This document shows positions 40,001 to 46,000 of a DNA stretch of 64,000 bases, one piece after another; positions within the stretch are counted from its first letter, which is position 1, and each line of letters begins with the position of its first letter. Source of the stretch: Carposina sasakii (Eukaryota; Arthropoda; Insecta; Lepidoptera; Carposinidae); contig CP053156.1 in the NCBI GenBank assembly GCA_014607495.2, forward strand, positions 6,634,001 to 6,698,000, read 5' to 3'. Below the pieces are notes generated by a model. The model was not told the DNA's origin. It did not search any database and worked only from the letters and a program-made list of their open reading frames with translations. The position numbers were made by a program, and so were the translations under genes.

Positions 40001-43000
40001 AGGAAGGCACAAACGGGTTAAGACACTTTTTAACAGGACATGGGGCCGTCTTCTTCTAGAATGGAATACAGTGTGTAAGTATGTGTAAGTGACAGCCAGG
40101 CAAAAATTTATATTCGCTATGGGTTCGCCCACCACCGGGCCCTACACCCTCCACTGACCCTCGGATCTGATAACTCACAATCGCGAAAACAAGCACTTGC
40201 ACTACCTACAATCGTCACAAGAAACCAGATCCGATCAGATCCGAGAGTCAGTCAAGGGTGTAAGGTCCGGTGGTGGGCGAACCTATGGGTTCCGCGAATG
40301 GTGGGTGGGTGAATGTTTTCACTTCCGAATTGTAACGCCTAATACAATTTCATTTATAAAAATTGATATGCTAACTTCAGACCATGATTTTGAGGCGAAA
40401 ACCACAAAAATTTTAAAGCATTGTAGTATTTGTTAGGCTGTAACCCTGACTCACACCCTATATGGAATAGAAAAAAAATTAGTAAAAAGCAGAATAGGTT
40501 GTGTACTTCTGTCACTCATAGTTTATTGTTTGAATTTCCGTCTGCTCAACGTTTGAGTAAATAGATAAACGTTTCCTTTCGTATCTCAGGGTGTCCAAGA
40601 CTACATAAAGCTGGCCATCATCGGCGGAGACCAGCTCCAGTTCCAGTTCCAAGTGGGGGACACTCCTCTCGGGGTGGCCGTTGAGACTGCCATGCGGTTA
40701 GCTGACGACCGCTGGCACTCCGTGTCTGTGGAACGCAACCGGTAAGAGTCGATTAAATGGGGTCGATGAGACTAAGGCGGGCCGTTGAGACTAGGAGGCC
40801 GTTAAGACTAAGGGACTGTTGAGACTAAAGGGTTCTGTTGAGATAAGGGGCCCGTTGAGACAACGTGTATGCCGAAGAGCGCTCGGCGCCTTCCCGCGCT
40901 CCACACTTCGTCCCGCGCACACGCACAATCTCAATTTTCGCTTTCGCATTCTGCAAGTTATGTGATCATGGGACGGGTAGCAGGTTCACCGAACTGCACG
41001 CGATGAAGGGTCGGTGAGTTTGCCCATGCGGCGCTACTAACATAGTTTATAAGCTATTATATTGTTACTAACATTCTATGGATCTTTGGTCTGTAAATAA
41101 ATGATTTTTATTTTATTTACATACGTACAATCACGCCTTTATCTTTTACGGGGTTGGCAGAGCACCAAGGGCCGATAGAACCACATGGTGTCACTTCTGA
41201 CCATATTTTGATAGGTGGTCAGCCCATCGCCTACAAATTTTTTTATATTATTACTAGCGGACCTGACAGACGTTGTCCTGTCCCACGCCTTTGAACTAAC
41301 GTCACCCAATTGTTTTGCCTTCCCAGACTTTCAAATTTCGAACAAATTGTTTGTATGGGAATGTAGAAAAGGAATGTTTTAGACATGTTCAGGCATTTTT
41401 TAACACGTTGACGGACAGTTGCGTCTATAGCCGTCAAGTTCAAGTTCACTATGTGACATGACGGCAATAGCCGTCCAATACGAAACGGTCGTTTTTAGAC
41501 ACTGCGGCTGTATTGAATTAATCAAAATTAAGTGTATTTAAGCAGAAAGAGTAAAACCATACTTCTAATATTCTAAAAATTACAAAAACATATAGTGTCA
41601 ATTTTCGAATTTCACTTGTTTCTACTGTCCGTCAACGTGTTAAAAATTTTCTCTCCGTTAGAACCATCCCTGTACTTCAAGGAATACGCTAAAAAAATTA
41701 TTAGCGAAATCGGCTTAGCCGTTTTTGAGATTCGCGCTTACCGACACAAAAAATATAAACATAAAAAATCTATAATATAAAAATGAATCGCTAAATATTC
41801 ATTTTTATATTATAGATTTTTTTATTTTATTATTATCTAAGTTCGTACAGCATATCACCCCCCACAGCAAGGAGGCGCGCGTGGTGGTGGACGGCGCGAT
41901 CAAGAACGAGATCCGCACGGCACGCGAGCCGGCGCGGGCGCTGCATCTGACGTCGGCGCTGGCGCTGGGCGCCACGCTGGAGCGGACGGACGGGTTTGTG
42001 GGCTGTGTGCGAGCACTGCTACTCAACGGACGACCGGTCGATCTGCGGGCGTATGCCAGGCGGGGTGAGGCTGTGCTGGCTTGTGATGTCCAGCCAATCA
42101 TATTCATTGGTGCATTATGTCGAAACATAGATAGAAAATTAAAAAGTTTAAAGAGATGGTCAAATTCGTCATCCGAGTTAATGGCCCGGTAGCTCAGTTG
42201 GTTAGAGCGAAGCGCGGTATGCTAGCGGTCGCGAGTTCAAGTCTCATTTTTTTTTTTCATTTCTTAATATTAGAAAATTCTTTATTGAGAATATTTAATT
42301 AACGGCACTCGTGTCTTGGTCTGTGTTTTACATGAATAAATAAATTTTGACAACCATTTTCACCGTTTTCCTCGCAGGTTTATACGGCGTGGGCGAGGGT
42401 TGCGTCGGTCGCTGTGCGTCCAACCCGTGCCTCAACAACGGCACGTGCCTGGAGGGCTACGACGCCTACTCCTGCGACTGTCGCTGGACCGCCTTCAAGG
42501 GCCCCATCTGTGCCGACGGTAGGTACAACCCGTGCCTCAACAACGGCACGTGCCTGGAGGGCTACGACGCCTACTCCTGCGACTGTCGCTGGACCGCCTT
42601 CAAGGGCCCCATCTGTGCCGACGGTAGGTACAACCCGTGCCTCAACAACGGCACGTGCCTGGAGGGCTACGACGCCTACTCCTGCGACTGTCGCTGGACC
42701 GCCTTCAAGGGCCCCATCTGTGCCGACGGTAGGTACAACCCGTGCCTCAACAACGGCACGTGCCTGGAGGGCTACGACGCCTACTCCTGCGACTGTCGCT
42801 GGACCGCCTTCAAGGGCCCCATCTGTGCCGACGGTAGGTACAACCCGTGCCTCAACAACGGCACGTGCCTGGAGGGCTACGACGCCTACTCCTGCGACTG
42901 TCGCTGGACCGCCTTCAAGGGCCCCATCTGTGCCGACGGTAGGTACAACCCGTGCCTCAACAACGGCACGTGCCTGGAGGGCTACGACGCCTACTCCTGC

Positions 43001-46000
43001 GACTGTCGCTGGACCGCCTTCAAGGGCCCCATCTGTGCCGACGGTAGGTACAACCCGTGCCTCAACAACGGCACGTGCCTGGAGGGCTACGACGCCTACT
43101 CCTGCGACTGTCGCTGGACCGCCTTCAAGGGCCCCATCTGTGCCGACGGTAGGTACAACCCGTGCCTCAACAACGGCACGTGCCTGGAGGGCTACGACGC
43201 CTACTCCTGCGACTGTCGCTGGACCGCCTTCAAGGGCCCCATCTGTGCCGACGGTAGGTACAACCCGTGCCTCAACAACGGCACGTGCCTGGAGGGCTAC
43301 GACGCCTACTCCTGCGACTGTCGCTGGACCGCCTTCAAGGGCCCCATCTGTGCCGACGGTAGGTACAACCCGTGCCTCAACAACGGCACGTGCCTGGAGG
43401 GCTACGACGCCTACTCCTGCGACTGTCGCTGGACCGCCTTCAAGGGCCCCATCTGTGCCGACGGTAGGTACAACCCGTGCCTCAACAACGGCACGTGCCT
43501 GGAGGGCTACGACGCCTACTCCTGCGACTGTCGCTGGACCGCCTTCAAGGGCCCCATCTGTGCCGACGGTAGGTACAACCCGTGCCTCAACAACGGCACG
43601 TGCCTGGAGGGCTACGACGCCTACTCCTGCGACTGTCGCTGGACCGCCTTCAAGGGCCCCATCTGTGCCGACGGTAGGTACAACCCGTGCCTCAACAACG
43701 GCACGTGCCTGGAGGGCTACGACGCCTACTCCTGCGACTGTCGCTGGACCGCCTTCAAGGGCCCCATCTGTGCCGACGGTAGGTACAACCCGTGCCTCAA
43801 CAACGGCACGTGCCTGGAGGGCTACGACGCCTACTCCTGCGACTGTCGCTGGACCGCCTTCAAGGGCCCCATCTGTGCCGACGGTAGGTACAACCCGTGC
43901 CTCAACAACGGCACGTGCCTGGAGGGCTACGACGCCTACTCGAAGACTTGAAGTGTTAGACTAATACCTTAGGACCCAGAGTCAACCTTACCTGCCCCTG
44001 GTGCAGCCTGCTATCTTACAAACGAGGCTCTGACTTTGACGCTAAATAGCTTATAATATCTATTTAGAATGACACAGAAATATTTCTTATTAGATTTGTT
44101 ATGTAACTAGTGTTGTATTTACACCCGAAAAAACGGCGGTAGGCTCACCTCTTATCACGTGGGGCTTAATAGGCTAAACGGTGAAAAGTGGGGAGTGTAA
44201 TTTACACACTTTTGTCCAACCTTTTTGGGGGATAATGGGTGTGATATACCTATATGTATACAGGGTGATTTTTTTGTGGCCACCTTTAACGAAGGGTACG
44301 TATTCTATACATGAAATAAAGTAAGTTTATGCCAAAAAAATACTAGGAAAAAAAATTCTTTTTTTGAAAAAAAATTTTAAATTCTTGATCGTGCGAAATT
44401 TATAGTGTCTAGTGTTTATGTTAGGTTTTTTATAGACAGATATTAATTATTTTTCGTGAAAAAATCCTGCTACGCGCGTCTATGTGCATTTATGCAGAAA
44501 AACGCAGTCTATTTACTCAACTTTGGACCCTAATATTTTGGAAACCAGACACTTCCCAGGTATGCTTCCATGGAGAAAAATGATCGTGATAATGAGGAGA
44601 TTCCGTAGTTTTCGGGAACGTTGACGACCAAAACTCACCCTGTATGTACATATGTTTATTTACATTTGTTCCCCAGAAATCGGAGTGAACCTGCGTCCCA
44701 GCACGTTCGTGAAGTACGACTTCCTGGGCTCGTGGCGCTCCACCATCAACGAGCGCATCCGCGTCGGCTTCACCACCACCAACCCCAAGGGCTTCCTGCT
44801 GGGGTTCTACTCCAACATCTCCGGGGAGTACCTCACTATGATGGTGTCTAACTCGGGTATGTTTTTGTTCACTTGCATTTGTTTTTAAACCCTCATTTAC
44901 ACGATACCATTTTGTTGAATGTTACTTTTAATTTTTATGAAGCTAAATGTAAAAAATAAAGATAAATGTCTATCATGGTCGAAGATCTAATTTTTGACAC
45001 ATTGTACAAGTTTTTACTAGTCAATAATGGCATATGAATAATTGAATTCAATCATGTACTTATTACTCTTCAATAAGTAAGAAAATACATGTAGTATCAT
45101 GTAAATAAGCCTTACCTCTGTTTTTTTTGCGACGTTTTTATTTTTGACTCATAGCCTCAGTGTACATTCCATAGCCGATAATATGCACGGAAAGAGATGC
45201 AGCTAATGTATTCTAGTAAAACCCTGCATCAGCACATGACTCAAAATGATATGTAAATCCATCCCAGGTCACTTACGCGTGGTGTTTGACTTCGGTTTCG
45301 AGAGACAGGAGATAATCTTCCAGGGGAAGTACTTCTCTCTCGGACAGTACCACGACGTGCGACTGTCGAGGATCAACGGAGGCGCCACCATGGTGCTGCA
45401 GGTAGGTGAATAGTGCATAGAAAGAGTTTATGTTCTATCCACCAGAAAAAAATAAACTTTTTAATAAAAACTGCATATATTATTAAGAATATTGAAACAA
45501 TCTTTTTGATACATCATAGAAATTATTTGTGTGCCACCCACCAGAAAAAATAACTTTTTTAATGAGAACTGCCCTTGTACATATATTAAAACAATATTTT
45601 CGATTTATGTATTTGCAATTAGACAACTAGACGCGTTACGTAATAGTAGTAGAGCAAGCATTAACTTTGTAATTGTCACGTTCTCAAATCTTATAGCCTG
45701 CGTGACGCACTTAAGTTTTTTTAAATTTTAAATTGCAGTATTTTTCACTACTGTGAAAAAGCCTCCTTACCCACTTGTTTGTACTTTCATAACGTGAATA
45801 TGGCCCATCACGCTAGTTTGGGCGTTTTACGGAAGGTAAAATGGTTTGTCCCATTCGGAATAACAATTAGTTTTCAAACCTTAATTCGACATAATAGTTA
45901 TTAGCCATCAAGAAAAGATATCATACAAACATACAAATTCCTCATAATTCCAGGTGGACAACTACGAGACGCAGGAGTTCCATTTCAACATAAAGGACTC

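Follow-up and report, generated by a model that had tools for sequence, protein, structure and literature searches.

We analyzed a 64,000-nt stretch of the moth Carposina sasakii (contig CP053156.1, positions 6,634,001 to 6,698,000), called the window below, which lies on contig 9 of an assembly of 31 contigs and 399 Mb. Its main gene is Neurexin-4, in which the end of an exon for an epidermal growth factor (EGF) module, exon EGF2, opens a tandem array of 105-bp units. We placed 25 coding exons of this gene from 16287 to 48880, both alternative discoidin exons counted; a signal-peptide exon was not found. Discoidin, laminin-G, EGF, and fibrinogen-like parts, a transmembrane segment, and a short tail follow one another in the order of the Neurexin IV/Caspr family, and the discoidin domain is recognized by Pfam. 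Eleven aligned lepidopteran neurexin-4 orthologues are 78-84% identical, in agreement with the host gene named in an earlier note on this DNA. EGF2 is the 19th of the exons placed, not exon 20 as given there. The alternative discoidin exons (17928-18148 and 18629-18839) are adjacent, both have GTAAT donors, and their exact acceptors are uncertain; they resemble the mutually exclusive exons of fly Nrx-IV. An intron of the gene also holds a same-strand open frame of 273 codons (16874-17692, +) for a 4'-phosphopantetheinyl transferase of the AASDHPPT type (PF22624, PF01648). Judged by name and domains, the transferase and Neurexin-4 are fused in public models of Arctia, Timema, and Anopheles.

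The features at EGF2 are as follows.

42378..42518, + strand: exon EGF2 of Neurexin-4, with the sole complete EGF of the array region and its donor G|GTAGGT at 42518/42519
42421..43941, + strand: EGF2 array, 105-bp unit, 14 perfect copies plus 51 nt, from Tandem Repeats Finder (TRF) and an in-register split
43949..43951, + strand: first in-frame stop (TGA) on read-through of the array, in the flank past copy 15
44677..44856, + strand: exon LG4a, the splice partner downstream of EGF2

TRF gave a period of 105, 14.5 copies, and 100% matches. In the in-register split there were 0 mismatches in copies 1-14 and copy 15 matched for 51 nt, the copy number being that of the assembly and of one haplotype. 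Each unit joins 98 nt of exon end (42421-42518) to 7 nt of intron start, GTAGGTA, and every full unit carries the donor G|GTAGGT. Joined to exon LG4a, all 14 donors keep the frame without a stop. The earlier note had described the array in the same way, except that it put the stop inside the 15th copy, which ends at 43941. A genome-wide search with two units returned 8 matches, all inside the array, and the unit was found at no other place.

Copy 1 aligns fully, first cysteine included, to the EGF of a solved neurexin-1-alpha structure. The repeated unit had been taken for an EGF module. It starts two codons past the first EGF cysteine, and units 2-14 therefore carry five cysteines in translation, short of the six per module of protein EGF arrays. 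The disulfides of an EGF pair cysteines 1-3, 2-4, and 5-6, so each extra unit would hold one unpaired cysteine. In the match to the Pfam EGF profile, copy 1 starts at profile position 1 and the units start at position 4. The later start is not disqualifying alone because other EGFs of the C. sasakii genome likewise enter the profile at 4 or 5. In the genome search with this profile, 150 of 328 candidates were scored and 97 matches listed. Copy 1 was the only part of the EGF2 array among the matches listed, which is weak evidence given the share of candidates scored and the start of other EGFs at 4 or 5. Other EGF exons with regular identical copies were not seen among the 97 matches listed, in a search that can miss copies.

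The earlier note had proposed that splicing from the different donors gives 1-14 EGF repeats. Such a ladder of alternative donors would yield isoforms in which the one full EGF is followed by 0-13 further units, each of 35 residues and five cysteines. The open reading of 14/14 donors in frame and the identical donor in each unit are as this proposal has it, and the units are still scored as EGF-like by Pfam (15 stretches in the read-through frame). Against it, the units are without the first cysteine, whose usual partner, the third, would be left unpaired. The EGF2 signature was found in 198 of 200 homologues listed, once in each and never twice. These homologues came as sets of 44, 120, and 36 proteins, the second being 120 of 370. 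Among the short proteins, many resemble genomic frames that continue beyond the donor, and these have no second unit. Two sibling arrays described below are not usable as a ladder. We consider this use of the array improbable.

The array had been treated as the sole feature of its kind. This was ruled out, as three sibling arrays in the same gene hold a donor in the unit. They are listed here with two further candidate features.

35261..37778, + strand: FBGb array, 76-bp unit, 33 starts, at exon FBGb (35145-35321)
46609..46878, + strand: juxtamembrane array, TRF period 117, 2.5 copies, at exon 46513-46647
29928..30415, + strand: LG2c array, 23-bp unit, 21 degenerate copies, older, after exon 29787-29931
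33002..33029, + strand: relic, a diverged copy of 28 nt of exon EGF1 (32897-32924)
40759..40861, + strand: 17-bp x5.8 array, beginning 18 nt past the donor of exon LG3b (40590-40741)

The FBGb unit comprises 61 nt of exon end and GTAACTATCTGTACA. Its array has 30 copies of 76 nt, two rearranged copies (109 and 65 nt), and a last copy whose intron start is different. The variants in this array are ordered and also occur at its edges, as is typical of a living minisatellite. The juxtamembrane unit comprises 39 nt of exon end followed by GTGAGTGTAGT, and the array has three donors 103 and 117 nt apart. The frame stays open from the first donor alone, 1/33 in the FBGb array and 1/3 in the juxtamembrane array. 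The extra copies of these two arrays can have no ordinary coding role, and by analogy there is no need to read the EGF2 copies as coding. In both, the intron begins differently behind the last copy than in the inner copies: soon past the GT at FBGb (GTAGTTAG versus GTAACTAT), and after GTGAGTGTAGT in the juxtamembrane array. Such a difference could stem from filler DNA taken up in the original duplication, or the edge may have diverged later. The LG2c unit (ACAG|GTTAGT...) has the last 4 exon nt and 19 intron nt, and it is the weakest of the sibling cases because it includes so little of the exon.

The EGF1 relic sits just past the donor of its exon (GTGAGTA), in the same layout as the EGF2 unit, and none of 5000 mononucleotide shuffles scored as high. 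Reading on past this donor (32993-33034) would add 16 residues before a stop. The 17-bp array and exon LG3b have GGCCGTTGAGACT in common, with a score reached by 2 of 5000 mononucleotide shuffles. Its origin from this exon is uncertain, and we regard it as doubtful because exon LG3b only ties the other-intron controls. Comparing each exon to its own introns, the downstream intron beats all controls for 3/25 exons and the upstream intron for 0/25. Exon EGF1 only ties in this comparison because its short intron is counted a second time, as the one upstream of the following exon.

To count arrays, TRF rows with a period of at least 15 were merged by hand, dropping rows with shorter periods, rows nested in others, and rows that gave the same array under a further period. 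This left 10 independent arrays in the gene. A donor lies in the first unit of four of them (P ~3e-4, by shifting or random placing). The count is 3/9 without the EGF2 array itself (P 0.003-0.004). None of the 10 spans an acceptor.

We conclude that the EGF2 array is probably a minisatellite across the exon-intron boundary, with the first donor used and the other copies removed as intron. The array would have begun with a tandem duplication of the 98-nt end of exon EGF2 together with 7 nt of intron. From there, slippage or unequal exchange may have brought the unit to 14 and a half copies, in this account so recently that all copies are still alike. The first donor, directly past the complete EGF at 42518/42519, is most likely the one used; copies 2-15 would be spliced out with the intron and the protein would retain one EGF at EGF2. 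The same process may have acted at three more donors of Neurexin-4. Selection would set the placing: a duplication spanning a donor would be tolerated because the true exon and the first donor are untouched, and one that lies inside an exon, or spans an acceptor, would in most cases alter the mRNA. We infer these amplification steps and the selection argument. Judging from the one-copy homologues, splicing of the host gene would be undisturbed.

The perfect identity of the copies had been put down to very recent amplification, strong homogenization, or an assembly error. With a mutation rate of 2.9e-9 per site (PMC6672018), 0 differences over 1521 nt allow by arithmetic an age up to ~0.7 million generations (95% bound). 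Homogenization is therefore not required, and such identity is expected of an expansion younger than this bound. That a loop or consensus error in the assembly multiplied one 105-bp unit is unlikely. Identical copies are what such an error would leave, but the assembly is chromosome-scale (contigs 1-20 are 11.8-19.1 Mb), Neurexin-4 has siblings of other periods at further donors, among them one whose variants are ordered, and a gene model of another moth has a like array at the FBGb exon.

That model is the Neurexin-4 of Scirpophaga incertulas (P0045), with six identical 56-residue units and a seventh matching the first 45 residues. Known from the protein alone, its units read through the donor (PHG|EQATLYTLHS). 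The repeats are at the FBGb exon, the exon of the 76-bp array in C. sasakii. They are probably an independent event because the unit borders differ from those of the FBGb array. Repeats of other kinds, likewise known only as proteins, were found in three more insects. Plutella xylostella (P0001) has the end of the juxtamembrane exon duplicated, Papilio machaon (P0074) the membrane exon, and Blattella germanica (P0104) part of a discoidin exon. Internal repeats are present in 3 of 31 named lepidopteran proteins versus 1 of 133 others (164 examined, P 0.02), a split counted by hand from names in which some unnamed 'others' may be moths.

It is possible, if doubtful, that the ends of Nrx-4 exons are a mutational hotspot in moths, acting via the 5' splice site and beyond selection alone. 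A hotspot would be compatible with the boundary-spanning minisatellite, and transcription, an R-loop, or repair with filler DNA are tentative candidate causes. Four arrays in one gene, the recurrence at the same exon in Scirpophaga, the exon duplications in Plutella and Papilio machaon with the lepidopteran excess, and the last-copy intron starts of the 76-bp and 117-bp arrays, which differ past the GT as if filler had been added, all point this way. However, selection on random duplications would likewise leave survivors at donors, and the Plutella, Papilio, and Blattella cases need not involve a donor. The units show no hairpin signal, which also speaks against a hotspot: folding of the four donor-array units gave z of -0.58 to 0.34, and hairpin-driven slippage was rejected on this result. 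It is very improbable that such a hotspot copies exon end plus donor and that here an in-frame array has become a graded donor ladder with variable EGF-like units.

Several points weigh against a boundary-spanning minisatellite that is spliced out. Use of the first donor is something we infer from the genomic sequence. None of the 14 donors at EGF2 breaks the frame. This looks like a one-in-three accident, as a unit length divisible by three has that chance, and two siblings, in each of which no donor but the first is usable, make it look accidental. In the Scirpophaga gene model the repeats are coding; we doubt that model because it is also without a membrane segment. The array count behind the P values for donor placing is a hand-merged list. 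The account leaves four such arrays in one gene unexplained. Array density in the window is ordinary, 18.8 versus 16.5 per 100 kb (12 in 64 kb versus 33 in 200 kb), the comparison being 20 stretches of 10 kb at one fixed coordinate on contigs 1-20, and a repeat-prone region was rejected on this density. Three further loci with laminin-G in the same genome, covering 24 kb with 12 matched exons, have no exon-derived array; the three TRF rows there are AT-rich and all fall in one locus. Donor arrays per exon are 4/24 in Neurexin-4 versus 0/12 at these controls (P 0.28), and therefore Neurexin-4 is not proven special.

GC-rich arrays (at least 0.55) make up 5 of 12 in the window versus 2 of 33 in the sampled stretches, and neither of those two is at an exon donor, judged by eye. 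The 50 kb beside the window has two more GC-rich places, L030 5192-5246 and L032 9277-9322. The first is within the last coding part of a gene that we take from its sequence to be dynein intermediate chain. In an intron of that gene, ~20 nt past the donor, lies a 39-bp x6.5 array (L030:5362-5613, TRF 97%). It does not span the boundary and no exon copy is visible in it. An 18-bp x78 array (L012:3003-4390) has an open frame of ENPETE repeats with a stop soon after. Within the window, a 300-nt repeat lies at 968-1267 and 2703-3002, 1735 nt apart with 100% identity. It contains an 82-aa frame, and a Pfam scan of a 73-aa part of this frame gave no match.

If the minisatellite account is true, one conserved insect gene with four arrays would offer a time series of intron growth from the donor end. 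Its stages would be perfect (EGF2), variant-bearing (76 bp), degenerate (23 bp), and relic (EGF1), and it would also show when an exon may lengthen. Gene models call for caution, as the repeats of the Scirpophaga protein may have entered via a donor-spanning array.

Similar arrays are described in amphioxus as 'mirages', minisatellites that span exon-intron boundaries in Adh3 and the globin genes BflGb6 and BflGb9 (PMC3087553). There the units are 10-160 bp, the BflGb6 copies are 81-100% alike, splicing is reported to be undisturbed, and mirages are proposed as a source of new introns (PMC3087553). They may also be a source of exon extensions. That report of undisturbed splicing weighs against the reading of 1-14 EGF repeats. 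The Neurexin-4 units are like mirages in layout, each running from the end of an exon over its splice signal into the intron. The donor is inside the first unit of four arrays. The units are minisatellite-sized, 23-117 bp, and apparently evolve in concert with divergent edges, as in the variant edge copies of the 76-bp array; the EGF2 array itself is without variants by which to judge its edges. Unlike in the mirages, the host is an insect, four arrays are in one gene, one of them keeps every donor in frame, and all are at 5' sites, whereas the amphioxus arrays are at both 5' and 3' boundaries.

The AGGT duplication model of Rogers reportedly has introns gained by tandem genomic duplication around a splice signal. 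The arrays described here share a tandem duplication around a splice signal beside an exon. In that model the duplicated piece provides an exon with both new splice sites, donor and acceptor, whereas here an existing intron grows at its 5' end only.

Boundary minisatellites are also described in human segmental-duplication genes, where they may change the structure of a gene or give rise to introns (PMC2812944). Those lie in recent paralogues and have units of ~30 bp x4 on average, whereas Neurexin-4 is a conserved gene. A literature search on boundary arrays, judged by title and the start of the abstract, returned no insect report, so one may exist. As far as we have searched, what sets Neurexin-4 apart from these known systems is the taxon, the number of arrays per gene, and the luck of an in-frame unit.

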